DNA of 64,000 nt from Diprion similis (lineage: Eukaryota; Arthropoda; Insecta; Hymenoptera; Diprionidae). The number at the start of each line of letters is the position of its first letter. Position 1 is the first letter of the stretch. The stretch covers positions 4,802,001-4,866,000 of the forward strand of contig NC_060117.1 in NCBI RefSeq assembly GCF_021155765.1, read 5' to 3'. This document shows positions 1 through 32,175 of this stretch, piece after piece. A program made the position numbers and the translations under genes. The notes beneath the pieces were generated by a model. The model worked only from the letters and a program-made list of their open reading frames with translations, searched no databases and was not told the DNA's origin.

Positions 1-2736
1 CTTTGAGAAGTGCTGCAATTAATTCTTTAGGGTACTATTCCGACGTGATTTTGCGAGAGGAATCGATTAATCGCAGTCCCGATACGCTGCGAGCAACACC
101 TGCAAAGTTACAGCCGAAAAACTGCAGATTTTTATCGTCATTTCTCTGCTGCTGGTCCTAGGCTATTTTTCATGTGTTTTCTGAGTTCCTGGGCGTCGAA
201 TTAGTCTAAAAAGCGTCATACGGATCGATTCCCAGACAAAAGATTTTTCGGCCAAAAAAAATCCCAGGCTAACCCCTTTGCATTTTTGGCGAAAATTTCG
301 ACGACTTTGAGAAGTGCTGCAATTAATTCTTTAGGGTACTATTCCGACGTGATTTTGCGAGAGGAATCGATTACTCGCAGTCCCGATACGCTGCGAGCAA
401 CACCTGCAAAGTTACAGCCGAAAAACTGCAGATTTTCATCGTCATTTCTCTGCTGCTGGTCCTAGGCTATTTTTCATGTGTTTTCTGAGTTCCTGGGCGT
501 CGAATTAGTCTAAAAAGCGTCATACGGATCGATTCCCAGACAAAAGATTTTTCGGCCAAAAAAAATCCAAGGCTAACCCCTTTGCATTTTTGGCGAAAAT
601 TTCGACGACTTCGAGAAGTGCTGCAATTAATTCTTCAGGGTACTATTCCGACGTGATTTTGCGAGAGGAATCGATTAATCGCTGTCCCGATACGCTGCGA
701 GCAACACCTGCAAAGTTACAGCCGAAAAACTGCAGATTTTCATCGTCATTTCTCTGCTGCTGGTCCTAGGCTATTTTTCATGTGTTTTCTGAGTTCCTGG
801 GCGTCGAATTAGTCTAAAAAGCGTCATACGGATCGATTCCCAGACAGAAGATTTTTCGGCCAAAAAAAATCCAAGGCTAACCCCTTTGCATTTTTGGCGA
901 AAATTTCGACGACTTTGAGAAGTGCTGCAATTAATTCTTTAGGGTACTATTCCGACGTGATTTTGCGAGAGGAATCGATTAATCGCAGTCCCGATACGCT
1001 GCGAGCAACACCTGCAAAGTTACAGCCGGAAAACTGCAGATTTCCATCGTCATTTCTCTGCTGCTGGTCCTAGGCTATTTTTCATGTGTTTTCTGAGTTC
1101 CTGGGCGTCGAATTAGTCTAAAAAGCGTCATACGGATCGATTCCCAGACAAAAGATTTTTCGGCCAAAAAAAATCCAAGGCTAACCCCTTTGCATTTTTG
1201 GCGAAAATTTCGACGACTTTGAGAAGTGCTGCAATTAATTCTTTAGGGTACTATTCCGACGTGATTTTGCGAGAGGAATCGATTAATCGCAGTCCCGATA
1301 CGCTGCGAGCAACACCTGCAAAGTTACAGCCGGAAAACTGCAGATTTCCATCGTCATTTCTCTGCTGCTGGTCTTAGGCTATTTTTCATGTGTTTTCTGA
1401 GTTCCTGGGCGTCGAATTAGTCTAAAAAGCGTCATACGGATCGATTCCCACACAAAAGATTTTTCGGCCAAAAAAAATCCAAGGCTAACCCCTTTGCATT
1501 TTTGGCGAAAATTTCGACGACTTTGAGAAGTGCTGCAATTAATTCTTTAGGGTACTATTCCGACGTGATTTTGCGAGAGAAATCGATTAATCGCAGTCCC
1601 GATACGCTGCGAGCAACACCTGCAAAGTTACAGCCGAAAAACTGCAGATTTTCATCGTCATTTCTCTGCTGCTGGTCCTAGGCTATTTTCCATGTGTTTT
1701 CTGAGTTCCTGGGCGTCGAATTAGTCTGAAAAGCGTCATACGGATCGATTCCCAGACAAAAGATTTTTCGGCCAAAAAAAATCCAAGGCTAACCCCTTTG
1801 CATTTTTGGCGAAAATTTCGACGACTTTGAGAAGTGCTGCAAATAATTCTTTAGGGTACTATTCCGACGTGATTTCGCGAGAGGAATCGATTAATCGCAG
1901 TCCCGATACGCTGCGAGCAACACCTGCAAAGTTACAGCCGAAAAACTGCAGATTTTTATCGTCATTTCTCTGCTGCTGGTCCTAGGCTATTTTTCATGTG
2001 TTTTCTGAGTTCCTGGGCGTCGAATTAGTCTAAAAAGCGTCATACGGATCGATTCCCAGACAAAAGATTTTTCGGCCAAAAAAAATCCCAGGCTAACCCC
2101 TTTGCATTTTTGGCGAAAATTTCGACGACTTTGAGAAGTGCTGCAATTAATTCTTTAGGGTACTATTCCGACGTGATTTTGCGAGAGGAATCGATTAATC
2201 GCAGTCCCGATACGCTGCGAGCAACACCTGCAAAGTTACAGCCGGAAAACTGCAGATTTTCATCGTCATTTCTCTGCTGCTGGTCCTAGGCTATTTTTCA
2301 TGTGTTTTCTGAGTTCCTGGGCGTCGAATTAGTCTAAAAAGCGTCATACGGATCGATTCCCAGACAAAAGATTTTTCGGCCAAAAAAAATCCAAGGCTAA
2401 CCCCTTTGCATTTTTGGCGAAAATTTTGACGACTTTGAGAAGTGCTGCAATTGATTCTTTAGGGTACTATTCCGACGTGATTTTGCGAGAGGAATCGATT
2501 AATCGCAGTCCCGATACGCTGCGAGCAACACCTGCAAAGTTACAGCCGAAAAACTGCAGATTTTCATCGTCATTTCTCTGCTGCTGGTCCTAGGCTATTT
2601 TTTATGTGTTTTCTGAGTTCCTGGGCGTCGAATTAGTCTAAAAAGTGTCATACGGATCGATTCCCAGACAAAAGATTTTTCGGCCAAAAAAAATCCAAGG
2701 CTAACCCCTTTGCATTTTTGGCGAAAATTTCGACGA

Positions 2737-3952
2737 CTTTGAGAAGTGCTGCAATTAATTCTTTAGGGTACTATTCCGACGTGATTTTGCGAGAGGAATC
2801 GATTACTCGCAGTCCCGATACGCTGCGAGCAACACCTGCAAAGTTACAGCCGAAAAACTGCAGATTTTCATCGTCATTTCTCTGCTGCTGGTCCTAGGCT
2901 ATTTTTCATGTGTTTTCTGAGTTCCTGGGCGTCGAATTAGTCTAAAAAGCGTCATACGGATCGATTCCCAGACAAAAGATTTTTCGGCCAAAAAAAATCC
3001 AAGGCTAACCCCTTTGCATTTTTGGCGAAAATTTCGACGACTTCGAGAAGTGCTGCAATTAATTCTTCAGGGTACTATTCCGACGTGATTTTGCGAGAGG
3101 AATCGATTAATCGCTGTCCCGATACGCTGCGAGCAACACCTGCAAAGTTACAGCCGAAAAACTGCAGATTTTCATCGTCATTTCTCTGCTGCTGGTCCTA
3201 GGCTATTTTTCATGTGTTTTCTGAGTTCCTGGGCGTCGAATTAGTCTAAAAAGCGTCATACGGATCGATTCCCAGACAAAAGATTTTTCGGCCAAAAAAA
3301 ATCCAAGGCTAACCACTTTGCATTTTTGGCGAAAATTTCGACGACTTTGAGAAGTGCTGCAATTAATTCTTTAGGGTACTATTCCGACGTGATTTTGCGA
3401 GAGGAATCGATTAATCGCAGTCCCGATACGCTGCGAGCAACACCTGCAAAGTTACAGCCGAAAAACTGCAGATTTTCATCGTCATTTCTCTGCTGCTGGT
3501 CCTAGGCTATTTTTCATGTGTTTTCTGAGTTCTTGGGCGTCGAATTAGTCTAAAAAGCGTCATACGGATCGATTCCCAGACAAAAGATTTTTCGGCCAAA
3601 AAAAATCCAAGGCTAACCCCTTTGCATTTTTGGCGAAAATTTCGACGACTTTGAGAAGTGCTGCAATTAATTCTTTAGGGTACTATTCCGACGTGATTTT
3701 GCGAGAGAAATCGATTAATCGCAGTCCCGATACGCTGCGAGCAACACCTGCAAAGTTACAGCCGAAAAACTGCAGAATTTCATCGTCATTTCTCTGCTGC
3801 TGGTCCTAGGCTATTTTTCATGTGTTTTCTGAGTTCCTGGGCGTCGAATTAGTCTAAAAAGCGTCATACGGATCGATTCCCAGACAAAAGATCTTTCGGC
3901 CAAAAAAAATCCAAGGCTAACCCCTTTGCATTTTTGGCGAAAATTTCGACGA
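2737..3952 (+). repeat. Higher-order repeat block of four monomers (copies 10-13)
   Basis: Four consecutive monomers with a recognisable order of variants: GATTACTCGC in copy 10, then CTTCGAG with TTCTTCAGGG and CGCTGTCCC in copy 11, GTTCTTGGGCG in copy 12, and GAGAGAAATCG with AGATCTTTCGG in copy 13. The same order recurs 2,432 bp (eight monomers) later. The first two variants also occur in copies 2-3. Confidence 0.88.
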
Positions 3953-5168
3953 CTTTGAGAAGTGCTGCAATTAATTCTTTAGGGTACTATTCCGACGTGA
4001 TTTTGCGAGAGGAATCGATTAATCGCAGTCCCGATACGCTGCGAGCAACACCTGCAAAGTTACAGCCGAAAAACTGCAGATTTTCATCGTCATTTCTCTG
4101 CTGCTGGTCCTAGGCTATTTTTCATGTGTTTTCTGAGTTCCTGGGCGTCGAATTAGTCTAAAAAGCGTCATACGGATCGATTCCCAGACAAAAGATTTTT
4201 CGGCCAAAAAAAATCCCAGGCTAACCCCTTTGCATTTTTGGCGAAAATTTCGACGACTTTGAGAAGTGCTGCAATTAATTCTTTAGGGTACTATTCCGAC
4301 GTGATTTTGCGAGAGGAATCGATTAATCGCAGTCCCGATACGCTGCGAGCAACACCTGCAAAGTTACAGCCGGAAAACTGCAGATTTTCATCGTCATTTC
4401 TCTGCTGCTGGTCCTAGGCTATTTTTCATGTGTTTTCTGAGTTCCTGGGCGTCGAATTAGTCTAAGAAGCGTCATACGGATCGATTCCCAGACAAAAGAT
4501 TTTTCGGCCAAAAAAAATCCAAGGCTAACCCCTTTGCATTTTTGGCGAAAATTTTGACGACTTTGAGAAGTGCTGCAATTGATTCTTTAGGGTACTATTC
4601 CGACGTGATTTTGCGAGAGGAATCGATTAATCGCAGTCCCGATACGCTGCGAGCAACACCTGCAAAGTTACAGCCGAAAAACTGCAGATTTTCATCGTCA
4701 TTTCTCTGCTGCTGGTCCTAGGCTATTTTTTATGTGTTTTCTGAGTTCCTGGGCGTCGAATTAGTCTAAAAAGTGTCATACGGATCGATTCCCAGACAAA
4801 AGATTTTTCAGCCAAAAAAAATCCAAGGCTAACCCCTTTGCATTTTTGGCGAAAATTTCGACGACTTTGAGAAGTGCTGCAATTAATTCTTTAGGGTACT
4901 ATTCCGACGTGATTTTGCGAGAGGAATCGATTAATCGCAGTCCCGATACGCTGCGAGCAACACCTGCAAAGTTACAGCCGGAAAACTGCAGATTTTCATC
5001 GTCATTTCTCTGCTGCTGGTCCTAGGCTATTTTTCATGTGTTTTCTGAGTTCCTGGGCGTCAAATTAGTCTCAAAAGCGTCATTCGGATCGATTCCCAGA
5101 CAAAAGATTCTTCGGCCAAAAAAAATCCAAGGCTAACCCCTTTGCATTTTTGGCGAAAATTTCGACGA

Positions 5169-6384
5169 CTTTGAGAAGTGCTGCAATTAATTCTTTAGGG
5201 TACTATTCCGACGTGATTTTGCGAGAGGAATCGATTACTCGCAGTCCCGATACGCTGCGAGCAACACCTGCAAAGTTACAGCCGAAAAACTGCAGATTTT
5301 CATCGTCATTTCTCTGCTGCTGGTCCTAGGCTATTTTTCATGTGTTTTCTGAGTTCCTGGGCGTCGAATTAGTCTAAAAAGCGTCATACGGATCGATTCC
5401 CAGACAAAAGATTTTTCGGCCAAAAAAAATCCAAGGCTAACCCCTTTGCATTTTTGGCGAAAATTTCGACGACTTCGAGAAGTGCTGCAATTAATTCTTC
5501 AGGGTACTATTCCGACGTGATTTTGCGAGAGGAATCGATTAATCGCTGTCCCGATACGCTGCGAGCAACACCTGCAAAGTTACAGCCGAAAAACTGCAGA
5601 TTTTCATCGTCATTTCTCTGCTGCTGGTCCTAGGCTATTTTTCATGTGTTTTCTGAGTTCCTGGGCGTCGAATTAGTCTAAAAAGCGTCATACGGATCGA
5701 TTCCCAGACAAAAGATTTTTCGGCCAAAAAAAATCCAAGGCTAACCACTTTGCATTTTTGGCGAAAATTTCGACGACTTTGAGAAGTGCTGCAATTAATT
5801 CTTTAGGGTACTATTCCGACGTGATTTTGCGAGAGGAATCGATTAATCGCAGTCCCGATACGCTGCGAGCAACACCTGCAAAGTTACAGCCGAAAAACTG
5901 CAGATTTTCATCGTCATTTCTCTGCTGCTGGTCCTAGGCTATTTTTCATGTGTTTTCTGAGTTCTTGGGCGTCGAATTAGTCTAAAAAGCGTCATACGGA
6001 TCGATTCCCAGACAAAAGATTTTTCGGCCAAAAAAAATCCAAGGCTAACCCCTTTGCATTTTTGGCGAAAATTTCGACGACTTTGAGAAGTGCTGCAATT
6101 AATTCTTTAGGGTACTATTCCGACGTGATTTTGCGAGAGAAATCGATTAATCGCAGTCCCGATACGCTGCGAGCAACACCTGCAAAGTTACAGCCGAAAA
6201 ACTGCAGATTTTCATCGTCATTTCTCTGCTGCTGGTCCTAGGCTATTTTTCATGTGTTTTCTGAGTTCCTGGGCGTCGAATTAGTCTAAAAAGCGTCATA
6301 CGGATCGATTCCCAGACAAAAGATCTTTCGGCCAAAAAAAATCCAAGGCTAACCCCTTTGCATTTTTGGCGAAAATTTCGACGA
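5169..6384 (+). repeat. Higher-order repeat block, second copy (monomers 18-21)
   Basis: Repeats the diagnostic substitutions of 2737-3952 at an offset of exactly 8 x 304 bp. The neighbouring variant ATTGATTC recurs at monomers 9, 16 and 23, an offset of seven, so one monomer was gained or lost between the blocks. Similar orderings reappear near 13.1-13.7 kb and 20.4-21.6 kb. Confidence 0.87.
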
Positions 6385-9300
6385 CTTTGAGAAGTGCTGC
6401 AATTAATTCTTTAGGGTACTATTCCGACGTGATTTTGCGAGAGGAATCGATTAATCGCAGTCCCGATACGCTGCGAGCAACACCTGCAAAGTTACAGCCG
6501 GAAAACTGCAGATTTTCATCGTCATTTCTCTGCTGCTGGTCCTAGGCTATTTTTCATGTGTTTTCTGAGTTCCTGGGCGTCGAATTAGTCTAAAAAGCGT
6601 CATACGGATCGATTCCCAGACAAAAGATTTTTCGGCCAAAAAAAATCCAAGGCTAACCCCTTTGCATTTTTGGCGAAAATTTTGACGACTTTGAGAAGTG
6701 CTGCAATTGATTCTTTAGGGTACTATTCCGACGTGATTTTGCGAGAGGAATCGATTAATCGCAGTCCCGATACGCTGCGAGCAACACCTGCAAAGTTACA
6801 GCCGAAAAACTGCAGATTTTCATCGTCATTTCTCTGCTGCTGGTCCTAGGCTATTTTTCATGTGTTTTCTGAGTTCCTGGGCGTCGAATTAGTCTAAAAA
6901 GCGTCATACGGATCGATTCCCAGACAAAAGATTTTTCGGCCAAAAAAAATCCAAGGCTAACCCCTTTGCATTTTTGGCGAAAATTTCGACGACTTTGAGA
7001 AGTGCTGCAATTAATTCTTTAGGGTACTATTCCGACGTGATTTTGCGAGAGGAATCGATTAATCGCAGTCCCGATACGCTGCGAGCAACACCTGCAAAGT
7101 TACAGCCGGAAAACTGCAGATTTTCATCGTCATTTCTCTGCTGCTGGTCCTAGGCTATTTTTCATGTGTTTTCTGAGTTCCTGGGCGTCAAATTAGTCTC
7201 AAAAGCGTCATACGGATGGATTCCCAGACAAAAGATTTTTCGGCCAAAAAAAATCCAAGGCTAACCCCTTTGCATTTTTGGCGAAAATTTCGACGACTTT
7301 GAGAAGTGCTGCAATTAATTCTTTAGGGTACTATTCCGACGTGATTTTGCGAGAGGAATCGATTAATCGCAGTCCCGATACGCTGCGAGCAACACCTGCA
7401 AAGTTACAGCCGAAAAACTGCAGATTTTCATCGTCATTTCTCTGCTGCTGGTCCTAGGCTATTTTTCATGTGTTTTCTGAGTTCCTGGGCGTCGAATTAG
7501 TCTAAAAAGCGTCATACGGATCGATTCCCAGACAAAAGATTTTTCGACCAAAAAAAATCCAAGGCTAACCCCTTTGCATTTTTGGCGAAAATTTCGACGA
7601 CTTTGAGAAGTGCTGCAATTAATTCCTTAGGGTACTATTCCGACGTGATTTTGCGAGAGGAATCGATTAATCGCAGTCCCGATACGCTGCGAGCAACACC
7701 TGCAAAGTTACAGACGAAAAACTGCAGATTTTCATCGTCATTTCTCTGCTGCTGGTCCTAGGCTATTTTTCATGTGTTTTCTGAGTTCCTGGGCGTCGAA
7801 TTAGTCTAGAAAGCGTCATACGGATCGATTCCCAGACAGAAGATTTTTCGGCCAAAAAAAATCCAAGGCTAACCCCATTGCATTTTTGGCGAAAATTTCG
7901 ACGACTTTGAGAAGTGCTGCAATTAATTCTTTAGGGTACTATTCCGACGTGATTTTGCGAGAGGAATCGATTAATCGCAGTCCCGATACGCTGCGAGCAA
8001 CACCTGCAAAGTTACAGCCGAAAAACTGCAGATTTTCATCGTCATTTCTCTGCTGCTGGTCCTAGGCTATTTTTCATGTGTTTTCTGAGTTCCTGGGCGT
8101 CGAATTAGTCTAAAAAGCGTCATACGGATCGATTCCCAGACAAAAGATTTTTCGGCCAAAAAAAATCCAAGGCTAACCCCTTTGCATTTTTGGCGAAAAT
8201 TTCGACGACTTTGAGAAGTGCTGCAATTAATTCTTTAGGGTACTATTCCGACGTGATTTTGCGAGAGGAATCGATTCATCGCAGTCCCGATACGCTGCGA
8301 GCAACACCTGCAAAGTTACAGCCGGAAAACTGCAGATTTCCATCGTCATTTCTCTGCTGCTGGTCCTAGGCTATTTTTCATGTGTTTTCTGAGTTCCTGG
8401 GCGTCGAATTAGTCTAAAAAGCGTCATACGGATCGATTCCCACACAAAAGATTTTTCGGCCAAAAAAAATCCAAGGCTAACCCCTTTGCATTTTTGGCGA
8501 AAATTTCGACGACTTTGAGAAGTGCTGCAATTAATTCTTTCGGGTACTATTCCGACGTGATTTTGCGAGAGAAATCGATTAATCGCAGTCCCGATACGCT
8601 GCGAGCAACACCTGCAAAGTTACAGCCGAAAAACTGCAGATTTTCATCGTCATTTCTCTGCTGCTGGTCCTAGGCTATTTTTCATGTGTTTTCTGAGTTC
8701 CTGGGCGTCGAATTAGTCTAAAGAGCGTCATACGGATCGATTCCCAGACAAGAGATTTTTCGGCCAAAAAAAATCCAAGGCTAACCACTTTGCATTTTTG
8801 GCGAAAATTTCGACGACTTTGAGAAGTGCTGCAATTAATTCTTTAGGGTACTATTCCGACGTGATTTTGCGAGAGGAATCGATTAATCGCAGTCCCGATA
8901 CGCTGCGAGCAACACCTGCAAAGTTACAGCCAAAAAACTGCAGATTTTCATCGTCATTTCTCTGCTGCTGGTCCTAGGCTATTTTCCATGTGTTTTCTGA
9001 GTTCCTGGGCGTCGAATTAGTCTAAAAAGCGTCATACGGATCGGTTCCCAGACAAAAGATTTTTCGGCCAAAAAAAATCCAAGGCTAACCCCTCTGCATT
9101 TTTGGCGAAAATTTCGACGACTTTGAGAAGTGCTGCAATTAATTCTTTAGGGTACTATTCCGACGTGATTTTGCGAGAGGAATCGATTAATCGCAGTCCC
9201 GATACGCTGCGAGCAACACCTGCAAAGTTACAGCCGAAAAACTGCAGATTTTTATCGTCATTTCTCTGCTGCTGGTCCAAGGCTATTTTTCATGTGTTTT

Positions 9301-12300
9301 CTGAGTTCCTGGGCGTCGAATTAGTCTAAAAAGCGTCATATGGATCGATTCCCAGACAAAAGATTTTTCGGCCAAAAAAAATCCCAGGCTAACCCCTTTG
9401 CATTTTTGGCGAAAATTTCGACGACTTTGAGAAGTGCTGCAATTAATTCTTTAGGGTACTATTCCGACGTGATTTTGCGAGAGGAATCGATTAATCGCAG
9501 TCCCGATACGCTGCGAGCAACACCTGCAAAGTTACAGCCGGAAAACTGCAGATTTTCATCGTCATTTCTCTGCTGCTGGTCGTAGGCTATTTTTCATGTG
9601 TTTTCTGAGTTCCTGGGCGTCGAATTAGTCTAAAAAGCGTCATACGGATCGATTCCGAGACAAAAGATTTTTCGGCCAAAAAAAATCCAAGGCTAACCCC
9701 TTTGCATTTTTGGCGAAAATTTCGACGACTTTGAGGAGTGCTGCAATTAATTCTTTAGGGTACTATTCCGACGTGATTTTGCGAGAGGAATTGATTAATC
9801 GCAGTCCCGATACGCTGCGAGCAACACCTGCAAAGTTACAGCCGAAAAACTGCAGATTTTCATCGTCATTTCTCTGCTGCTGGTCCTAGGCTATTTTTCA
9901 TGTGTTTTCTGAGTTCCTGGGCGTCGAATTAGTCTCAAAAGTGTCATACGGATCGATTCCCAGACAAAAGATTTTTCGGCCAAAAAAAATCCAAGGCTAA
10001 CCACTTTGCATTTTTGGCGAAAATTTCGACGACTTTGAGAAGTGCTGCAATTAATTCTTTAGGGTACTATTCCGACGTGATTTTGCGAGAGGAATCGATT
10101 AATCGCAGTCCCGATACGCTGCGAGCAACACCTGCAAAGTTACAGCCGAAAAACTGCAGATTTTCATCGTCATTTCTCTGCTGCTGGTCCTAGGCTATTT
10201 TTCATGTGTTTTCTGAGTTCCTGGGCGTCGAATTAGTCTAAAAAGCGTCATACGGATCGATTCCCACACAAAAGATTTTTCGGCCAAAAAAAATCCAAGG
10301 CTAACCCCTTTGCATTTTTGGCGAAAATTTCGACGACTTTGAGAAGTGCTGCAATTAATTCTTTAGGGTACTATTCCGACGTGATTTTGCGAGAGGAATC
10401 GATTAATCGCAGTCCCGATACGCTGCGAGCAACACCTGCAAAGTTACAGCCGGAAAACTGCAGATTTTCATCGTCATTTCTCTGCTGCTGGTCCTAGGCT
10501 ATTTTTCATGTGTTTTCTGAGTTCCTGGGCGTCAAATTAGTCTCAAAAGCGTCATACGGATCGATTCCCAGACAAAAGATTCTTCGGCCAAAAAAAATCC
10601 AAGGCTAACCCCTTTGCATTTTTGGCGAAAATTTTGACGACTTTCAGAAGTGCTGCAATAAATTCTTTAGGGTACTATTCCGACGTGATTTTGCGAGAGG
10701 AATCGATTAATCGCAGTCCCGATACGCTGCGAGCAACACCTGCAAAGTTACAGCCGAAAAACTGCAGATTTTCATCGTCATTTCTCTGCTGCTGGTCCCA
10801 GGCTATTTTTCATGTGTTTTCTGAGTTCCTGGGCGTCGAATTAGTCTAAAAAGCGTCATACGGATCGATTCCCAGACAAAAGATCTTTCGGCCAAAAAAA
10901 ATCCAAGGCTAACCCCTTTGCATTTTTGGCGAAAATTTCGACGACTTTGAGAAGTGCTGCAATTAATTCTTTAGGGTACTATTCCGACGTGATTTTGCGA
11001 GAGGAATCGATTCATCGCAGTCATGATACGCTGCGAGCAACACCTGCAAAGGTACAGCCGAAAAACTGCAGATTTTCATCGTCATTTCTCTGCTGCTGGT
11101 CCTAGGCTATTTTTCATGTGTTTTCTGAGTTCCTGGGCGTCGAATTAGTCTAAAAAGCGTCATAGGGATCGATTCCCAGACAAAAGATCTTTCGGCCAAA
11201 AAAAATCCAAGGCTAACCCCTTTGCATTTTTGGCGAAAATTTCGACGACTTTGAGAAGTGCTGCAATTAATTCTTTAGGGTACTATTCCGACGTGATTTT
11301 GCGAGAGGAATCGATTAATCGCAGTCCCGATACGCTGCGAGCAACACCTGCAAAGTTACAGCCGAAAAACTGCAGATTTTCATCGTCATTTCTCTGCTGC
11401 TGGTCCTAGGCTATTTTTCATGTGTTTTCTGAGTTCCTGGGCGTCGAATTAGTCTAAAAAGCGTCATACGGATCGATTCCCAGACAAAAGATTTTTCGGC
11501 CAAAAAAAATCCAAGGCTAACCCCTTTGCATTTTTGGCGAAAATTTCGACGACTTTGAAAAGTGCTGCCATTTATTCTTTAGGGTACTATTCCGACGTGA
11601 TTTTGCGAGAGGAATCGATTAATCGCAGTCCCGATACGCTGCGAGCAACACCTGCAAAGTTACAGCCGAAAAACTGCAGATTTTCATCGTCATTTCTCTG
11701 CTGCTGGTCCTAGGCTATTTTTCATGTGTTTTCTGAGTTCCTGGGCGTCGAATTAGTCTAAAAAGCGTCATACGGATCGATTCCCAGACAAAAGATTTTT
11801 CGGCCAAAAAAAATCCAAGGCTAACCCCTTTGCATTTTTGGCGAAAATTTCGACGACTTTGAGAAGTGCTGCAATTAATTCTTTAGGGTACTATTCCGAC
11901 GTGATTTTGCGAGAGGAATCGATTAATCGCAGTCCCGATACGCTGCGAGCAACACCTGCAAAGTTACAGCCGAAAAACTGCAGATTTTCATCGTCATTTC
12001 TCTGCTGCTGGTCCTAGGCTATTTTTCATGTGTTTTCTGAGTTCCTGGGCGTCGAATTAGTCTAAAAAGCGTCATACGGATCGATTCCCAGACAAAAGAT
12101 TTTTCGGCCAAAAAAAATCCAAGGCTAACCCCTTTGCATTTTTGGCGAAAATTTCGACGACTTTGAGAAGTGCTGCAATTAATTCTTTAGGGTACTATTC
12201 CGACGTGATTTTGCGAGAGGAATCGATTAATCGCAGTCCCGATACGCTGCGAGCAACACCTGCAAAGTTACAGCCGGAAAACTGCAGATTTCCATCGTCA

Positions 12301-18300: not shown

Positions 18301-21300
18301 AATCGATTAATCGCAGTCCCGATACGCTGCGAGCAACACCTGCAAAGTTACAGCCGAAAAACTGCAGATTTTGATCGTCATTTCTCTGCTGCTGGTCCTA
18401 GGCTATTTTTCATGTGTTTTCTGAGTTCCTGGGCGTCGAATTAGTCTAAAAAGCGTCATACGGATCGATTCCCAGACAAAAGATTTTTCGGCCAAAAAAA
18501 ATCCAAGGCTAACCCCTTTGCATTTTTGGCGAAAATTTCGACGACTTTGAGAAGTGCTGCAATTAATTCTTTAGGGTACTATTCCGACGTGATTTTGCGA
18601 GAGGAATCGATTACTCGCAGTCCCGATACGCTGCGAGCAACACCTGCAAAGTTACAGCCGAAAAACTGCAGATTTTCATCGTCATTTCTCTGCTGCTGGT
18701 CCTAGGCTATTTTTCATGTGTTTTCTGAGTTCCTGGGCGTCGAATTAGTCTAAAAAGCGTCATACGGATCGATTCCCAGACAAAAGATCTTCCGGCCAAA
18801 AAAAATCCAAGGCTAACCCCTTTGCATTTTTGGCGAAAATTTCGACGACTTTGAGAAGTGCTGCAATTAATTCTTTAGGGTACTATTCCGACGTGATTTT
18901 GCGAGAGGAATCGATTAATCGCAGTCCCGATACGCTGCGAGCAACACCTGCAAAGTTACAGCCGAAAAACTGCAGATTTTCATCGTCATTTCTCTGCTGC
19001 TGGTCCTAGGCTATTTTTCATGTGTTTTCTGAGTTCCTGGGCGTCGAATTAGTCTAAAAAGCGTCATACGGATCGATTCCCAGACAAAAGATTTTTCGGC
19101 CAAAAAAAATCCAAGGCTAACCCCTTTGCATTTTTGGCGAAAATTTCGACGACTTTGAGAAGTGCTGCAATTAATTCTTTAGGGTACTATTCCGACGTGA
19201 TTTTGCGAGAGGAATCGATTATTCGCAGTCCCGATACGCTGCGAGCAACACCTGCAAAGTTACAGCCGAAAAACTGCAGATTTTCATCGTCATTTCTCTG
19301 CTGCTGGTCCTAGGCTATTTTTCATGTGTTTTCTGAGTTCCTGGGCGTCGAATTAGTCTAAAAAGCGTCGTACGGATCGATTCCCAGACAAAAGATTTTT
19401 CGGCCAAAAAAAATCCAAGGCTAACCCCTTTGCATTTTTGGCGAAAATTTCGACGACTTTGAGAAGTGCTGCAATTAATTCTTTAGGGTACTATTCCGAC
19501 GTGATTTTGCGAGAGGAATCGATTAATCGCAGTCCCGATACGCTGCGAGCAACACCTGCAAAGTTACAGCCGGAAAACTGCAGATTTCCATCGTCATTTC
19601 TCTGCTGCTGGTCCTAGGCTATTTTTCATGTGTTTTCTGAGTTCCTGGGCGTCGAATTAGTCTAAAAAGCGTCATACGGATCGATTCCCAGACAAAAGAT
19701 CTTTCGGCCAAAAAAAATCCAAGGCTAACCCCTTTGCATTTCTGGCGAAAATTTCGACGACTTTGAGAAGTGCTGCAATTAATTCTTTAGGGTACTATTC
19801 CGACGTGATTTTGCGAGAGGAATCGATTAATCGCAGTCCCGATACGCTGCGAGCAACACCTGCAAAGTTACAGCCGAAAAACTGCAGATTTTTATCGTCA
19901 TTTCTCTGCTGCTGGTCCTAGGCTATTTTTCATGTGTTTTCTGAGTTCCTGGGCGTCGAATTAGTCTGAAAAGCGTCATACGGATCGATTCCCAGACAAA
20001 AGATTTTTCGGCCAAAAAAAATCCAAGGCTAACCCCTTTGCATTTTTGGCGAAAATTTCGACGACTTTGAGAAGTGCTGCAATTAATTCTTTAGGGTACT
20101 ATTCCGACGTGATTTTGCGAGAGGAATCGATTAATCGCAGTCCCGATACGCTGCGAGCAACACCTGCAAAGTTACAGCCGGAAAACTGCAGATTTTCATC
20201 GTCATTTCTCTGCTGCTGGTCCTAGGCTATTTTTCATGTGTTTTCTGAGTTCCTGGGCGTCGAATTAGTCTAAAAAGCGTCATACGGATCGATTCCCAGA
20301 CAAAAGATTTTTCGGCCAAAAAAAATCCAAGGCTAACCCCTTTGCATTTTTGGCGAAAATTTCGACGACTTTGAGAAGTGCTGCAATTGATTCTTTAGGG
20401 TACTATTCCGACGTGATTTTGCGAGAGGAATCGATTAATCGCAGTCCCGATACGCTGCGAGCAACACCTGCAAAGTTACAGCCGAAAAACTGCAGATTTT
20501 CATCGTCATTTCTCTGCTGCTGGTCCTAGGCTATTTTTCATGTGTTTTCTGAGTTCCTGGGCGTCGAATTAGTCTAAAAAGTGTCATACGGATCGATTCC
20601 CAGACAAAAGATTTTTCGGCCAAAAAAAATCCAAGGCTAACCCCTTTGCATTTTTGGCGAAAATTTCGACGACTTTGAGAAGTGCTGCAATTAATTCTTT
20701 AGGGTACTATTCCGACGTGATTTTGCGAGAGGAATCGATTAATCGCAGTCCCGATACGCTGCGAGCAACACCTGCAAAGTTGCAGCCGGAAAACTGCAGA
20801 TTTTCATCGTCATTTCTCTGCTGCTGGTCCTAGGCTATTTTTCATGTGTTTTCTGAGTTCCTGGGCGTCAAATTAGTCTCAAAAGCGTCATTCGGATCAA
20901 TTCCCAGACAAAAGATTCTTCGGCCAAAAAAAATCCAAGGCTAACCCCTTTGCATTTTTGGCGAAAATTTCGACGACTTTGAGAAGTGCTGCAATTAATT
21001 CTTTAGGGTACTATTCCGACGTGATTTTGCGAGAGGAATCGATTACTCGCAGTCCCGATACGCTGCGAGCAACACCTGCAAAGTTACAGCCGAAAAACTG
21101 CAGATTTTCATCGTCATTTCTCTGCTGCTGGTCCTAGGCTATTTTTCATGTGTTTTCTGAGTTCCTGGGCGTCGAATTAGTCTAAAAAGCGTCATACGGA
21201 TCGATTCCCAGACAAAAGATTTTTCGGCCAAAAAAAATCCAAGGCTAACCCCTTTGCATTTTTGGCGAAAATTTCGACGACTTCGAGAAGTGCTGCAATT

Positions 21301-24300
21301 ATTTCTTCAGGGTACTATTCCGACGTGATTTTGCGAGAGGAATCGATTAATCGCTGTCCCGATACGCTGCGAGCAACACCTGCAAAGTTACAGCCGAAAA
21401 ACTGCAGATTTTCATCGTCATTTCTCTGCTGCTGGTCCTAGGCTATTTTTCATGTGTTTTCTGAGTTCCTGGGCGTCGAATTAGTCTAAAAAGCGTCATA
21501 CGGATCGATTCCCAGACAAAAGATTTTTCGGCCAAAAAAAATCCAAGGCTAACCACTTTGCATTTTTGGCGAAAATTTCGACGACTTTGAGAAGTGCTGC
21601 AATTAATTCTTTAGGGTACTATTCCGACGTGATTTTGCGAGAGGAATCGATTAATCGCAGTCCCGATACGCTGCGAGCAACACCTGCAAAGTTACAGCCG
21701 AAAAACTGCAGATTTTCATCGTCATTTCTCTGCTGCTGGTCCTAGGCTATTTTTCATGTGTTTTCTGAGTTCCTGGGCGTCGAATTAGTCTAAAAAGCGT
21801 CATACGGATCGATTCCCAGACAAAAGATTTTTCGGCCAAAAAAAATCCAAGGCTAACCACTTTGCATTTTTGGCGAAAATTTCGACGACTTTGAGAAGTG
21901 CTGCAATTAATTCTTTAGGGTACTATTCCGACGTGATTTTGCGAGAGGAATCGATTAATCGCAGTCCCGATACGCTGCGAGCAACACCTGCAAAGTTACA
22001 GCCGAAAAACTGCAGATTTTCATCGTCATTTCTCTGCTGCTGGTCCTAGGCTATTTTTCATGTGTTTTCTGAGTTCCTGGGCGTCGAATTAGTCTAAAAA
22101 GCGTCATACGGATCGATTCCCAGACAAAAGATTTTTCGGCCAAAAAAAATCCAAGGCTAACCCCTTTGCATTTTTGGCGAAAATTTCGACGACTTCGAGA
22201 AGTGCTGCAATTATTTCTTCAGGGTACTATTCCGACGTGATTTTGCGAGAGGAATCGATTAATCGCTGTCCCGATACGCTGCGAGCAACACCTGCAAAGT
22301 TACAGCCGAAAAACTGCAGATTTTCATCGTCATTTCTCTGCTGCTGGTCCTAGGCTATTTTTCATGTGTTTTCTGAGTTCCTGGGCGTCGAATTAGTCTA
22401 AAAAGCGTCATACGGATCGATTCCCAGACAAAAGATTTTTCGGCCAAAAAAAATCCAAGGCTAACCCCTTTGCATTTTTGGCGAAAATTTCGACGACTTC
22501 GAGAAGTGCTGCAATTATTTCTTCAGGGTACTATTCCGACGTGATTTTGCGAGAGGAATCGATTAATCGCTGTCCCGATACGCTGCGAGCAACACCTGCA
22601 AAGTTACAGCCGAAAAACTGCAGATTTTCATCGTCATTTCTCTGCTGCTGGTCCTAGGCTATTTTTCATGTGTTTTCTGAGTTCCTGGGCGTCGAATTAG
22701 TCTAAAAAGCGTCATACGGATCGATTCCCAGACAAAAGATTTTTCGGCCAAAAAAAATCCAAGGCTAACCACTTTGCATTTTTGGCGAAAATTTCGACGA
22801 CTTTGAGAAGTGCTGCAATTAATTCTTTAGGGTACTATTCCGACGTGATTTTGCGAGAGGAATCGATTAATCGCAGTCCCGATACGCTGCGAGCAACACC
22901 TGCAAAGTTACAGCCGAAAAACTGCAGATTTTCATCGTCATTTCTCTGCTGCTGGTCCTAGGCTATTTTTCATGTGTTTTCTGAGTTCCTGGGCGTCGAA
23001 TTAGTCTAAAAAGCGTCATACGGATCGATTCCCAGACAAAAGATTTTTCGGCCAAAAAAAATCCCAGGCTAACCCCTTTGCATTTTTGGCGAAAATTTCG
23101 ACGACTTTGAGAAGTGCTGCAATTAATTCTTTAGGGTACTATTTCGACGTGATTTTGCGAGAGGAATCGATTAATCGCAGTCCCGATACGCTGCGAGCAA
23201 CACCTGCAAAGTTACAGCCGAAAAACTGCAGATTTTCATCGTCATTTCTCTGCTGCTGGTCCTAGGCTATTTTTCATGTGTTTTCTGAGTTCCTGGGCGT
23301 CGAATTAGTCTAAAAAGCGTCATACGGATCGATTCCCAGACTTGAGATTTTTCGGCCAAAAAAAATCAAAGGCTAACCACTTTGCATTTTTGGCGAAAAT
23401 TTCGACGACTTTGAGAAGTGCTGCAATTAATTCTTTAGGGTACTATTCCGACGTGATTTTGCGAGAGGAATCGATTAATCGCAGTCCCGATACGCTGCGA
23501 GCAACACCTGCGAAGTTACAGCCGAAAACCTGCAGATTTTCATCGTCATTTCTCTGCTGCTGGTCCTAGGCTATTTTTCATGTGTTTTCTGAGTTCCTGG
23601 GCGTCAAATTAGTTTCAAAAGCGTCATACGGATCGATTCCCAGACAAAAGATTTTTCGGCCAGAAAAAATCCAAGGCTAACCACTTTGCATTTTTGGCGA
23701 AAATTTCGACGACTTTGAGAAGTGCTGCAATTAATTCTTTAGGGTACTATTCCGACGTGATTTTGCGAGAGGAATCGATTAATCGCAGTCCCGATACGCT
23801 GCGAGCAACACCTGCGAAGTTACAGCCGAAAAACTGCAGATTTTCATCGTCATTTCTCTGCTGCTGGTCCTAGGCTATTTTTCATGTGTTTTCTGAGTTC
23901 CTGGGCGTCGAATTAGTCTAAAAAGCGTCATACGGATCGATTCCCAGACAAAAGATTTTTCGGCCAAAAAAAATCAAAGGCTAACCACTTTGCATTTTTG
24001 GCGAAAATTTCGACGACTTTGAGAAGTGCTGCAATTAATTCTTTAGGGTACTATTCCGACGTGATTTTGCGAGAGGAATCGATTAATCGCAGTCCCGATA
24101 CGCTGCGAGCAACACCTGCGAAGTTACAGCCGAAAACCTGCAGATTTTCATCGTCATTTCTCTGCTGCTGGTCCTAGGCTATTTTTCATGTGTTTTCTGA
24201 GTTCCTGGGCGTCGAATTAGTCTAAAAAGCGTCATACGGATCGATTCCCAGACAAAAGATTTTTCGGCCAAAAAAAATCCAAGGCTAACCCCTTTGCATT

Positions 24301-27239
24301 TTTGGCGAAAATTTCGACGACTTTGAGAAGTGCTGCAATTAATTCTTTAGGGTACTATTCCGACGTGATTTTGCGAGAGGAATCGATTAATCGCAGTCCC
24401 GATACGCTGCGAGCAACACCTGCAAAGTTACAGCCGAAAAACTGCAGATTTTCATCGTCATTTCTCTGCTGCTGGTCCTAGGCTATTTTTCATGTGTTTT
24501 CTGAGTTCCTGGGCGTCGAATTAGTCTAAAAAGCGTCATACGGATCGATTCCCAGACAAAAGATTTTTCGGCCAAAAAAAATCAAAGGCTAACCACTTTG
24601 CATTTTTGGCGAAAATTTCGACGACTTTGAGAAGTGCTGCAATTAATTCTTTAGGGTACTATTCCGACGTGATTTTGCGAGAGGAATCGATTAATCGCAG
24701 TCCCGATACGCTGCGAGCAACACCTGCGAAGTTACAGCCGAAAACCTGCAGATTTTCATCGTCATTTCTCTGCTGCTGGTCCTAGGCTATTTTTCATGTG
24801 TTTTCTGAGTTCCTGGGCGTCGAATTAGTCTAAAAAGCGTCATACGGATCGATTCCCAGACAAAAGATTTTTCGGCCAAAAAAAATCCAAGGCTAACCCC
24901 TTTGCATTTTTGGCGAAAATTTCGACGACTTTGAGAAGTGCTGCAATTAATTCTTTAGGGTACTATTCCGACGTGATTTTGCGAGAGGAATCGATTAATC
25001 GCAGTCCCGATACGCTGCGAGCAACACCTGCGAAGTTACAGCCGAAAACCTGCAGATTTTCATCGTCATTTCTCTGCTGCTGGTCCTAGGCTATTTTTCA
25101 TGTGTTTTCTGAGTTCCTGGGCGTCGAATTAGTCTAAAAAGCGTCATACGGATCGATTCCCAGACAAAAGATTTTTCGGCCAAAAAAAATCCAAGGCTAA
25201 CCCCTTTGCATTTTTGGCGAAAATTTCGACGACTTTGAGAAGTGCTGCAATTAATTCTTTAGGGTACTATTCCGACGTGATTTTGCGAGAGGAATCGATT
25301 AATCGCAGTCCCGATACGCTGCGAGCAACACCTGCAAAGTTACAGCCGAAAAACTGCAGATTTTCATCGTCATTTCTCTGCTGCTGGTCCTAGGCTATTT
25401 TTCATGTGTTTTCTGAGTTCCTGGGCGTCGAATTAGTCTAAAAAGCGTCATACGGATCGATTCCCAGACAAAAAATTTTTCGGCCAAAAAAAAACAAAGG
25501 CTAACCACTTTGCATTTTTGGCGAAAATTTCGACGACTTTGAGAAGTGCTGCAATTAATTCTTTAGGGTACTATTCCGACGTGATTTTGCGAGAGGAATC
25601 GATTAATCGCAGTCCCGATACGCTGCGAGCGACACCTGCGAAGTTACAGCCGAAAACCTGCAGATTTTCATCGTCATTTCTCTGCTGCTGGTCCTAGGCT
25701 ATTTTTCATGTGTTTTCTGAGTTCCTGGGCGTCGAATTAGTCTAAAAAGCGTCATACGGATCGATTCCCAGACAAAAGATTTTTCGGCCAAAAAAAATCC
25801 AAGGCTAACCCCTTTGCATTTTTGGCGAAAATTTCGACGACTTTGAGAAGTGCTGCAATTAATTCTTTAGGGTACTATTCCGACGTGATTTTGCGAGAGG
25901 AATCGATTAATCGCAGTCCCGATACGCTGCGAGCAACACCTGCGAAGTTACAGCCGAAAACCTGCAGATTTTCATCGTCATTTCTCTGCTGCTGGTCCTA
26001 GGCTATTTTTCATGTGTTTTCTGAGTTCCTGGGCGTCAAATTAGTCTCAAAAGCGTCATACGGATCGATTCCCAGACAAAAGATTTTTCAGCCAGAAAAA
26101 ATCCAAGGCTAACCACTTTGCATTTTTGGCGAAAATTTCGACGACTTTGAGAAGTGCTGCAATTAATTCTTTAGGGTACTATTCCGACGTGATTTTGCGA
26201 GAGGAATCGATTAATCGCAGTCCCGATACGCTGCGAGCAACACCTGCGAAGTTACAGCCGAAAAACTGCAGATTTTCATCGTCATTTCTCTGCTGCTGGT
26301 CCTAGGCTATTTTTCATGTGTTTTCTGAGTTCCTGGGCGTCGAATTAGTCTAAAAAGCGTCATACGGATCGATTCCCAGACAAAAGATTTTTCGGCCAAA
26401 AAAAATCAAAGGCTAACCACTTTGCATTTTTGGCGAAAATTTCGACGACTTTGAGAAGTGCTGCAATTAATTCTTTAGGGTACTATTCCGACGTGATTTT
26501 GCGAGAGGAATCGATTAATCGCAGTCCCGATACGCTGCGAGCAACACCTGCGAAGTTACAGCCGAAAACCTGCAGATTTTCATCGTCATTTCTCTGCTGC
26601 TGGTCCTAGGCTATTTTTCATGTGTTTTCTGAGTTCCTGGGCGTCGAATTAGTCTAAAAAGCGTCATACGGATCGATTCCCAGACAAAAGATTTTTCGGC
26701 CAAAAAAAATCCAAGGCTAACCCCTTTGCATTTTTGGCGAAAATTTCGACGACTTTGAGAAGTGCTGCAATTAATTCTTTAGGGTACTATTCCGACGTGA
26801 TTTTGCGAGAGGAATCGATTAATCGCAGTCCCGATACGCTGCGAGCAACACCTGCGAAGTTACAGCCGAAAACCTGCAGATTTTCATCGTCATTTCTCTG
26901 CTGCTGGTCCTAGGCTATTTTTCATGTGTTTTCTGAGTTCCTGGGCGTCAAATTAGTCTCAAAAGCGTCATACGGATCGATTCCCAGACAAAAGATTTTT
27001 CGGCCAGAAAAAATCCAAGGCTAACCACTTTGCATTTTTGGCGAAAATTTTGACGACTTTGAGAAGTGCTGCAATTAATTCTTTAGGGTACTATTCCGAC
27101 GTGATTTTGCGAGAGGAATCGATTAATCGCAGTCCCAATACGCTGCGAGCAACACCTGCGAAGTTACAGCCGAAAACCTGCAGATTTTCATCGTCATTTC
27201 TCTGCTGCTGGTCCTAGGCTATTTTTCATGTGTTTTCTG

Positions 27240-28180
27240 AGTTCCTGGGCGTCAAATTAGTCTCAAAAGCGTCATACGGATCGATTCCCAGACAAAAGAT
27301 TTTTCGGCCAGAAAAAATCCAAGGCTAACCACTTTGCATTTTTGGCGAAAATTTCGACGACTTTGAGAAGTGCTGCAATTAATTCTTTAGGGTACTATTC
27401 CGACGTGATTTTGCGAGAGGAATCGATTAATCGCAGTCCCGATACGCTGCGAGCAACACCTGCGAAGTTACAGCCGAAAAACTGCAGATTTTCATCGTCA
27501 TTTCTCTGCTGCTGGTCCTAGGCTATTTTTCATGTGTTTTCTGAGTTCCTGGGCGTCGAATTAGTCTAAAAAGCGTCATACGGATCGATTCCCAGACTAA
27601 AGATTTTTCGGCCAAAAAAAATCCAAGGCTAACCACTTTGCATTTTTGGCGAAAATTTCGACGACTTTGAGAAGTGCTGCAATTAATTCTTTAGGGTACT
27701 ATTGCGACGTGATTTTGCGAGAGGAATCGATTAATCGCAGTCCCGATACGCTGCGAGCAACACCTGCAAAGTTACAGCCGAAAAACTGCAGATTTTCATC
27801 GTCATTTCTCTGCTGCTGGTCCTAGGCTATTTTTCATGTGTTTTCTGAGTTCCTGGGCGTCGAATTAGTCTAAAAAGCGTCATACGGATCGATTCCCAGA
27901 CAAAAGATTTTTCGGCCAAAAAAAATCAAAGGCTAACCACTTTGCATTTTTGGCGAAAATTTCGACGACTTTGAGAAGTGCTGCAATTAATTCTTTAGGG
28001 TACTATTCCGACGTGATTTTGCGAGAGGAATCGATTAATCGCAGTCCCGATACGCTGCGAGCAACACCTGCGAAGTTACAGCCGAAAACCTGCAGATTTT
28101 CATCGTCATTTCTCTGCTGCTGGTCCTAGGCTATTTTTCATGTGTTTTCTGAGTTCCTGGGCGTCGAATTAGTCTAAAAA
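27240..28180 (+). repeat. Displaced satellite segment, first copy
   Basis: Carries rare private variants: CCAGAAAAAATCC (27,308), CAGACTAAAG (about 27,594), ATTGCGACG (27,702), AATCAAAGG (27,926) and AAAACCTGCAG (28,085). All recur 2,736 bp (nine monomers) downstream, at 29,976-30,916. Sharing of private variants over three consecutive units indicates block duplication, not independent mutation. Confidence 0.85.
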
Positions 28181-29975
28181 GCGTCATACGGATCGATTCC
28201 CAGACAAAAGATTTTTCGGCCAAAAAAAATCCAAGGCTAACCCCTTTGCATTTTTGGCGAAAATTTCGACGACTTTGAGAAGTGCTGCAATTAATTCTTT
28301 AGGGTACTATTCCGACGTGATTTTACGAGAGGAATCGATTAATCGCAGTCCCGATACGCTGCGAGCAACACCTGCAAAGTTACAGCCGAAAAACTGCAGA
28401 TTTTCATCGTCATTTCTCTGCTGCTGGTCCTAGGCTATTTTTCATGTGTTTTCTGAGTTCCTGGGCGTCGAATTAGTCTAAAAAGCGTCATACGGATCGA
28501 TTCCCAGACAAAAGATTTTTCGGCCAAAAAAAATCAAAGGCTAACCACTTTGCATTTTTGGCGAAAATTTCGACGACTTCGAGAAGTGCTGCAATTAATT
28601 CTCTAGGGTACTATTCCGACGTGATTTTGCGAGAGGAATCGATTAATCGCAGTCCCGATACGCTGCGAGCAACACCTGCAAAGTTACAGCCGAAAAACTG
28701 CAGATTTTCATCGTCATTTCTCTGCTGCTGGTCCTAGGCTATTTTTCATGTGTTTTCTGAGTTCCTGGGCGTCGAATTAGTCTAAAAAGCGTCATACGGA
28801 TCGATTCCCAGACAAAAGATTTTTCGGCCAAAAAAAATCCAAGGCTCACCCCTTTGCATTTTTGGCGAAAATTTCGACGACTTTGAGAAGTGCTGCAATT
28901 AATTCTTTAGGGTACTATTCCGACGTGATTTTGCGAGAGGAATCGATTAATCGCAGTCCCGATACGCTGCGAGCAACACCTGCGAAGTTACAGCCGAAAA
29001 CCTGCAGATTTTCATCGTCATTTCTCTGCTGCTGGTCCTAGGCTATTTTTCATGTGTTTTCTGAGTTCCTGGGCGTCGAATTAGTCTAAAAAGCGTCATA
29101 CGGATCGATTCCCAGACAAAAGATTTTTCGGCCAAAAAAAATCCAAGGCTAACCCCTTTGCATTTTTGGCGAAAATTTCGACGACTTTGAGAAGTGCTGC
29201 AATTAATTCTTTAGGGTACTATTCCGACGTGATTTTACGAGAGGAATCGATTAATCGCAGTCCCGATACGCTGCGAGCAACACCTGCAAAGTTACAGCCG
29301 AAAAACTGCAGATTTTCATCGTCATTTCTCTGCTGCTGGTCCTAGGCTATTTTTCATGTGTTTTCTGAGTTCCTGGGCGTCGAATTAGTCTAAAAAGCGT
29401 CATACGGATCGATTCCCAGACAAAAGATTTTTCGGCCAAAAAAAATCAAAGGCTAACCACTTTGCATTTTTGGCGAAAATTTCGACGACTTCGAGAAGTG
29501 CTGCAATTAATTCTCTAGGGTACTATTCCGACGTGATTTTGCGAGAGGAATCGATTAATCGCAGTCCCGATACGCTGCGAGCAACACCTGCAAAGTTACA
29601 GCCGAAAAACTGCAGATTTTCATCGTCATTTCTCTGCTGCTGGTCCTAGGCTATTTTTCATGTGTTTTCTGAGTTCCTGGGCGTCGAATTAGTCTAAAAA
29701 GCGTCATACGGATCGATTCCCAGACAAAAGATTTTTCGGCCAAAAAAAATCCAAGGCTCACCCCTTTGCATTTTTGGCGAAAATTTCGACGACTTTGAGA
29801 AGTGCTGCAATTAATTCTTTAGGGTACTATTCCGACGTGATTTTGCGAGAGGAATCGATTAATCGCAGTCCCGATACGCTGCGAGCAACACCTGCAAAGT
29901 TACAGCCGGAAAACTGCAGATTTTCATCGTCATTTCTCTGCTGCTGGTCCTAGGCTATTTTTCATGTGTTTTCTG

Positions 29976-30916
29976 AGTTCCTGGGCGTCAAATTAGTCTC
30001 AAAAGCGTCATACGGATCGATTCCCAGACAAAAGATTTTTCGGCCAGAAAAAATCCAAGGCTAACCACTTTGCATTTTTGGCGAAAATTTCGACGACTTT
30101 GAGAAGTGCTGCAATTAATTCTTTAGGGTACTATTCCGACGTGATTTTGCGAGAGGAATCGATTAATCGCAGTCCCGATACGCTGCGAGCAACACCTGCG
30201 AAGTTACAGCCGAAAAACTGCAGATTTTCATCGTCATTTCTCTGCTGCTGGTCCTAGGCTATTTTTCATGTGTTTTCTGAGTTCCTGGGCGTCGAATTAG
30301 TCTAAAAAGCGTCATACGGATCGATTCCCAGACTAAAGATTTTTCGGCCAAAAAAAATCCAAGGCTAACCACTTTGCATTTTTGGCGAAAATTTCGACGA
30401 CTTTGAGAAGTGCTGCAATTAATTCTTTAGGGTACTATTGCGACGTGATTTTGCGAGAGGAATCGATTAATCGCAGTCCCGATACGCTGCGAGCAACACC
30501 TGCAAAGTTACAGCCGAAAAACTGCAGATTTTCATCGTCATTTCTCTGCTGCTGGTCCTAGGCTATTTTTCATGTGTTTTCTGAGTTCCTGGGCGTCGAA
30601 TTAGTCTAAAAAGCGTCATACGGATCGATTCCCAGACAAAAGATTTTTCGGCCAAAAAAAATCAAAGGCTAACCACTTTGCATTTTTGGCGAAAATTTCG
30701 ACGACTTTGAGAAGTGCTGCAATTAATTCTTTAGGGTACTATTCCGACGTGATTTTGCGAGAGGAATCGATTAATCGCAGTCCCGATACGCTGCGAGCAA
30801 CACCTGCGAAGTTACAGCCGAAAACCTGCAGATTTTCATCGTCATTTCTCTGCTGCTGGTCCTAGGCTATTTTTCATGTGTTTTCTGAGTTCCTGGGCGT
30901 CGAATTAGTCTAAAAA
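29976..30916 (+). repeat. Displaced satellite segment, second copy
   Basis: Second copy of the 27,240-28,180 segment, offset 2,736 bp. To its left, two adjacent three-monomer (912-bp) blocks share TTTTACGAGA (28,321 and 29,233) and TCTCTAGGG (28,600 and 29,512). TCTCTAGGG appears again at 31,032, five monomers further on. Confidence 0.85.
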
Positions 30917-31867
30917 GCGTCATACGGATCGATTCCCAGACAAAAGATTTTTCGGCCAAAAAAAATCAAAGGCTAACCACTTTGCATTTTTGGCGAAAAT
31001 TTCGACGACTTCGAGAAGTGCTGCAATTAATTCTCTAGGGTACTATTCCGACGTGATTTTGCGAGAGGAATCGATTAATCGCAGTCCCGATACGCTGCGA
31101 GCAACACCTGCAAAGTTACAGCCGAAAAACTGCAGATTTTCATCGTCATTTCTCTGCTGCTGGTCCTAGGCTATTTTTCATGTGTTTTCTGAGTTCCTGG
31201 GCGTCGAATTAGTCTAAAAAGCGTCATACGGATCGATTCCCAGACAAAAGATTTTTCGGCCAAAAAAAATCCAAGGCTCACCCCTTTGCATTTTTGGCGA
31301 AAATTTCGACGACTTTGAGAAGTGCTGCAATTAATTCTTTAGGGTACTATTCCGACGTGATTTTGCGAGAGGAATCGATTAATCGCAGTCCCGATACGCT
31401 GCGAGCAACACCTGCAAAGTTACAGCCGGAAAACTGCAGATTTTCATCGTCATTTCTCTGCTGCTGGTCCTAGGCTATTTTTCATGTGTTTTCTGAGTTC
31501 CTGGGCGTCGAATTAGTCTAAAAAGCGTCATACGGATCGATTCCCAGACAAAAGATTTTTCGGCCAAAAAAAATCCAAGGCTAACCCCTTTGCATTTTTG
31601 GCGAAAATTTCGACGACTTTGAGAAGTGCTGCAATTAATTCTTTAGGGTACTATTCCGACGTGATTTTGCGAGAGGAATCGATTAATCGCAGTCCCGATA
31701 CGCTGCGAGCAACACCTGCAAAGTTACAGCCGAAAAACTGCAGATTTTCATCGTCATTTCTCTGCTGCTGGTCCTAGGCTATTTTTCATGTGTTTTCTGA
31801 GTTCCTGGGCGTCGAATTAGTCTAAAAAGCGTCATACGGATCGATTCCCAGACAAAAGATTTTTCGG

Positions 31868-32175
31868 CTAAAAAAATTCAAGGCTCACAACTTCAAATTT
31901 TTCGCGAAATTAATGGCGAATCTATCAAATGCTGCAAATTATACACTCACACATCATTTCGACTGATTCTTGCGAGAGAACGCGATTAAGTGCAGTCCTC
32001 ATACGCTGCGAGCATCTGATAAAAAATACGAATACAATCATACGAAAAACAAGGAATTTTCTCAACACCTCTCCAACTCTTGGTCCAACGCTATTTCAAA
32101 CGTCTTTTTCGCATCCTTCAGCATATAATCAGTTTTAAAAGAGCTGACGACGACAACTCCGGACAAAAAAATCCT
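31868..32175 (+). repeat. Diverged edge monomer of the satellite
   Basis: The sequence continues in register with the array but is strongly diverged. Recognisable monomer words include AATGCTGCAAATTA, CTTGCGAGAGAACGCGATTA, CTCATACGCTGCGAGCA, CTTGGTCCAACGCTATTT and AAAAAGAGCTGACG-like text. Decay at the array edge is typical of satellites, where homogenisation by unequal exchange is least effective. The homology fades near 32,175. Confidence 0.85.

Follow-up and report, generated by a model that had tools for sequence, protein, structure and literature searches.

We analyzed a 64,000-nucleotide stretch of the Diprion similis genome (contig NC_060117.1, positions 4,802,001 to 4,866,000; hereafter the window, or C13:4802001-4866000), the first half of which is occupied by a satellite array with 304-bp spacing. 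This window-type array runs on the forward strand from position 1 to 31885 and comprises 104 complete units and a partial last unit. Tandem Repeats Finder (TRF) reported it as a single array with a period of 304, 104.9 copies, 98% matches and 0% indels, and cutting the window at 304 bp showed that the strict register was kept in 104/104 complete units, bearing out the first-pass annotation, which had described copy starts at exact multiples of 304 with no indel. Substitutions relative to the consensus averaged 3.04 per unit (range 0 to 7) over the 104 units, 82 of 304 columns were variable, 74 of the 104 units were distinct and 93 distinct substitution alleles were present. The copies thus do differ by substitutions, as had been noted, but the "many substitutions" amount to a divergence of ~1% from the consensus and ~1.8% between units. 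Long head-to-tail arrays of one unit, recovered both by TRF and by unit cutting, identify the sequence as a satellite, and the contrast between ~1% divergence from the consensus within the window array and 11–16% divergence from other families is the pattern of concerted evolution.

The A8 run of the unit (254..261 in the first unit, forward strand, and every 304 bp thereafter) was equally regular. It was unbroken in 95 of the complete units and substituted in nine, with no length change, in agreement with the earlier statement that the run changes by substitution only; at position 25,486 (unit 84) the run reads nine A because the adjacent base is substituted. The partial 105th unit, just past position 31867, carries a 1-bp shortening at the A run. 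Mean pairwise difference between units was flat over lags 1–59, revealing no higher-order period in the window array, and an internal dimer of 2 x 152 was ruled out by a best half-to-half score of 18, compared to a shuffled mean of 20.6. Whereas the array had been given an extent of 1 to 31867 and about 105 copies, it is longer, extending left of the window to C13:4792547 for a total of about 136 units, and all 135 measured units of the window array and its left extension were 304 bp.

A search of the whole assembly (269 Mb in 60 contigs, labeled C1, C5, C13 and so on) for a 22-mer of the window-type monomer, allowing up to 1 mismatch, returned 11,407 copies on at least nine contigs, placing the sequence among high-copy satellites found in many places. 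The consensi of eight sampled stretches of this type on C1, C5, C9, C11, C13 and C14, together with that of the window, differed by only 0–0.7%. A second 304-bp family at 4.66 Mb on C9 (L032, C9:4663001-4671000) lies 11.2% from the window family, the two consensi aligning without an indel. Three related types have units of about 312 bp (L029, L030 and L031); these are 15.5–16.1% from the window consensus and 5.4–14.1% among themselves, and a word common to them occurs 9,825 times genome-wide. The length gap between the 304 and 312 types corresponds to one 8-bp block. At the three fetched 312-type loci, unit length was exactly 312 bp in 24/24 units of L029, 310–313 bp in L030 and 311–313 bp in L031. 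A conserved domain of the monomer was considered and rejected: differences among the five families were clumped along the monomer (2/5000 shuffles reached the observed value), a clumping that the 8-bp block inflates, and alleles within arrays did not avoid the conserved part of the monomer in a weak test of 14 sites only. The literature searched contained no paper on a 304-bp satellite, in Hymenoptera or elsewhere.

Analysis of the eight edges of 304-bp arrays that were seen, with each unit assigned to its nearest family, revealed 304-type units inside arrays and other types at edges. Five of the eight edges (C1 4.31, C1 6.09, C1 2.92, C11 8.93 and C14 6.55 Mb) showed a passage in exact register into 312-type units, with +8 shifts, and the edge at C13 3.42 Mb led into a truncated unit nearest to the 312-type L029, its length class being unreadable. 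The junction monomer at C1 2.92 Mb was 312-like at 6/7 of its first diagnostic sites and 304-like thereafter, a single later site matching neither type, and chimeric monomers with similar mosaics, mostly 312-like first and 304-like after, were present at the C11 8.93 Mb junction. Intermingling of the two types was also apparent at C1 6.09 Mb, where one 312-type unit is flanked by 304-type units, and at C1 2.92 Mb, where a 304-bp patch has 312-type units on its left. On the right of this patch, and of a retrotransposon inserted there, 312-type word matches follow from position 2928738, with 8/9 of the first word intervals equal to 312 or 624 bp. A register that is kept at junctions would be expected of homologous exchange but not of random insertion of a new array.

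We propose that a young 304-bp form of the satellite, which now numbers about 11,400 copies across nine or more contigs, is displacing an older 312-bp form from inside its arrays. The process would operate by homologous, in-register recombination, through both unequal crossing over and gene conversion, and such exchange would leave unit boundaries and spacing exact. A recent spread of the 304-bp form would explain why its units differ by only ~1% and why few length variants have arisen or been kept. The observations on which this proposal draws are the exact spacing, the near-identical sampled arrays on six contigs, the older units at edges, the in-register junctions, the chimeras and the flanked 304-bp patch; the direction of change from 312 to 304, its molecular route and its timing we infer within it. 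On balance, we think it probable that the 312-bp satellite is the older one and gave way to a young 304-bp variant through homologous exchange in register, and that the even 304-bp spacing mainly reflects this recent replacement. The very recent homogenization that the first-pass annotation had offered as one explanation is supported by these findings, given the 0–0.7% range of the window-type consensi and the older, decayed and longer units found at several edges.

Nevertheless, several observations weigh against the replacement of 312-bp by 304-bp units. Within arrays, eight window-type loci had 0.6–6.3 substitutions per unit and the three 312-type loci had 5.6, 10.3 and 9.1; because these ranges overlap, the 312 type is not cleanly marked as older, and our confidence is lowered for this reason. 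The 304-bp length as such is old, as the 11.2% divergence of the second 304-bp family shows. The window array, moreover, has unrelated DNA directly adjoining its left edge, without an older remnant, and at its right edge decayed copies with indels whose length class is unassignable (31927..32109, forward strand, 68% identity, with further pieces at 32690..33000, forward strand, 63–80% identity). Finally, recency would not by itself predict a low ratio of indels to substitutions.

Length changes do occur within the family. Among 631 units from eight sampled arrays, segmented by one anchor so that shifts are invisible where the anchor was lost, nine units carried 1-bp indels (five of 305 bp and four of 303 bp), representing 5 distinct alleles. 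The C11 3.87 Mb array contributed 8 units only to this one-anchor count, and re-segmentation of one 10-kb locus of this array gave 32/32 units at 304 bp. A walk along 19 tiles confirmed the units with 1-bp indels. It also detected shifts of +8 bp close to three of the edges, a single +9 shift and, within one array, an insertion of 1.9 kb. Genome-wide counts of exact words, which pool the window family with the second 304-bp family because the words match both, were 11,287 for A8, 43 for A7 and 55 for A9, or 0.86% run-length variants, with the A7 and A9 words grouped in 8 and 11 clusters, respectively (50-kb cut). In one array (C11:10565654-10614937), a 305-bp A9 variant has spread so far that it now occupies 36 of about 163 units, recurring every 2–12 units, and 35/35 of the intervals equal a multiple of 304 plus 1, indicating that no compensating deletion accompanies it. 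The existence of 303- and 305-bp units, the spread of the 305-bp variant in one array and the stable 312-bp array speak against the hard constraint on unit length that had been raised as an alternative to recent homogenization; length changes are rare, not forbidden, and the data lend no support to a strict constraint. Separately, we observed an A7-rich array near 3.65 Mb on C13 (C13:3635916-3666127), which holds at least 21 A7 units among the matches listed; 15/20 of its intervals fit one A7 each, and the other 5/20 carry further length changes.

Other explanations of the even spacing appear less plausible than replacement. Selection on unit length, acting for example through two phased nucleosomes per unit or through centromeric chromatin, would account for the 304 bp kept across 11% divergence between two families and is consistent with the weak AA/TT/TA periodicity of the window consensus, which lies near 9.9 bp and was reached by 5/500 shuffles. 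This periodicity did not stand out in four related family consensi, however, where 98–207 of 500 shuffles reached the value. The half-units show no similarity to each other, and unit length does not favor such selection either, given the stability of the 312-bp array, the two arrays varying from 310 to 313 bp, the 303- and 305-bp units and the spread of A9. The suggestion of nucleosome phasing thus finds a weak echo in the window consensus but none in the related families; the spacing can be explained without it, and we regard selection on unit length as very unlikely. Alternatively, a single recent burst, for instance by rolling-circle copying and insertion, could have built the array at its site, replacing nothing. 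The abrupt, undecayed left edge at C13:4792547 is what such a burst would leave, but the decayed copies at the right edge, and the meeting of other arrays with older units in register, two of them with chimeric monomers, make this origin improbable. Still harder to credit is an artefact of assembly or polishing, in which consensus building erased the length variants, since the assembly still contains 98 A7/A9 variants among its 11,385 run words, 1-bp indels persist in other arrays and 74 of the 104 window units remain distinct.

A further question is whether indels are scarcer than recency predicts. Under neutral turnover, substitutions and indels would share the same unit genealogies, so that recency should lower both alike. 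Inside arrays, the 631 units held 5 distinct indel alleles versus 305 distinct substitution alleles, compared to indel-to-substitution counts of 57:812, 64:840, 22:453 and 31:768 in decayed copies outside arrays under four gap costs; the corresponding Fisher tests gave p=0.0003, 0.0001, 0.03 and 0.06 and are thus dependent on gap cost. The decayed copies came from 12 stretches at array edges that were hand-chosen from the edges at hand and are not independent, and looser blastn tallies, of which one with a stiffer gap cost shows fewer gaps, were kept out of the test. Although this comparison used 92 window alleles, a recount gave 93, and binomial values were recomputed with the latter: under a null of 1:11.5, taken from the bumblebee, the lack of any indel beside the 93 substitution alleles of the window has p=0.0004, and under one of 1:28 it has p=0.04. 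The bumblebee ratio derives from the 2 indels and 23 point mutations given for a pedigree in PMC5854123, with wide published limits, and in the mutation counts given for the midge Chironomus in PMC6121839, 25/51 mutations were indels, 21/25 of those in A/T runs. Arrays are likely to have a deficit of indels, of uncertain size. The initial view that the lack of length variants calls for an explanation may hold in part, as recency alone should not lower the ratio.

Arrays may also lose indels to a modest extra degree when they recombine. In the explicit form of this idea, a recombination or repair filter would reject or correct length-mismatched units more often than substituted ones, causing arrays to shed indels beyond the effects of mutation and recency. 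Such a filter would fit the higher indel share of the decayed copies, the alignment of the two 304-bp families without an indel across their 11.2% divergence and the bumblebee pedigree; on the other hand, the test depends on gap costs, the edge copies are few, the bumblebee ratio is based on 2 indels, and the 305-bp variant on C11 spread through its array despite its length. We therefore consider the filter doubtful, if somewhat less so than a burst or selection on unit length.

Other arrays of the satellite also revealed a non-long-terminal-repeat (non-LTR) retrotransposon whose 3′ end joins the monomer at the CTAAC found at 269..273 of the first window unit (forward strand); inside the window, the array is interrupted by no such insertion. 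Two 5′-truncated copies in arrays on C1 (L014:4737-6595 and L035:3613-4930) are 98% identical over their common part, and both have a (TAAAC)n tail and meet the satellite at the identical CTAAC. A reverse transcriptase domain (PF00078) was detected in the longer C1 copy (E=5.1e-41) and in a likewise 5′-truncated copy on C5 (L039, about 2896-5610; E=8.4e-40), and no endonuclease family was found at E up to 1, the longest frame read being 800 amino acids in a 5′-truncated copy. A 341-bp piece of the 3′ part matched 31 places listed genome-wide. Exact 3′ junction words numbered 12 with a 304-type flank and 7 with a 312-type flank, and all 19 lay within 41 bp of one of the 31 listed copies; eight extra junction words with 1–2 mismatches, far from any listed copy, were excluded from the count. 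When L040 is added, another 5′-truncated copy at the CTAAC junction whose tail is a variant one, one satellite position is used by at least 20 of the 31 listed copies, identifying it as a common target. Several of the other 11 listed copies are distant relatives (68–79% identity or short). For all 4/4 copies fetched with flanks, the surrounding DNA is satellite.

In its reverse transcriptase and its fixed 3′ junction within a repeated target, this element resembles target-specific non-LTR retrotransposons such as R1, R2 and TRAS/SART, from which it differs in targeting a complex satellite monomer. As far as the list in PMC4640811 goes, the known non-LTR targets include no complex satellite, except that YURE weakly prefers a U2-derived one, and titles in the limited literature collection searched yielded no report of a non-LTR element targeting a complex satellite. 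It is conceivable, though we would put it forward only tentatively, that a 304-bp variant is sweeping 312-bp arrays by a homology-driven exchange that discriminates against length mismatch while tolerating substitutions, that the recombination machinery, and not chromatin, maintains unit length, and that the retrotransposon is specialized on a site common to both length classes.

The D. similis satellite shares with complex satellite DNAs under concerted evolution, such as TCAST of Tribolium and 1.688 of Drosophila, its long arrays, a unit of a few hundred bp, its presence on many contigs and its within-array homogenization. The present array lies beside a gene. Unlike these satellites, the family comprises two length classes side by side, of which one seems to be replacing the other. 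The placement of young, homogeneous repeats inside arrays and of older, diverged ones at edges recalls the layered expansion of primate alpha satellite, although here a contig carries several separate arrays, the window shows no higher-order repeat and the system is known from sequence alone. On C13, for example, arrays lie at 3.42, 4.80, 5.76, 6.03 and 6.25 Mb among the matches listed, a count per contig and not per chromosome. The turnover of satellites is usually reconstructed from its end states. The presence in one genome of old and new variants, in-register junctions, chimeras and a new patch in an old array makes the takeover of one variant by another directly testable, and the ratio of indels to substitutions inside versus outside arrays offers a simple way to ask if unit length is policed by recombination.

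The gene nearest to the window array, at 33594..35102 on the forward strand, encodes a metallo-beta-lactamase/beta-CASP/RMMBL protein, which we take to be IntS11-like. A search of the window for RNA families and tRNAs found none. Elsewhere in the assembly, a nuclear COX1-like fragment on C7 (L034, C7:8182164-8182700) has a 200-amino-acid open frame under code 5 and is perhaps a nuclear mitochondrial copy; the mitochondrial COX1, on the 25-kb contig C45, is open under the invertebrate mitochondrial code.

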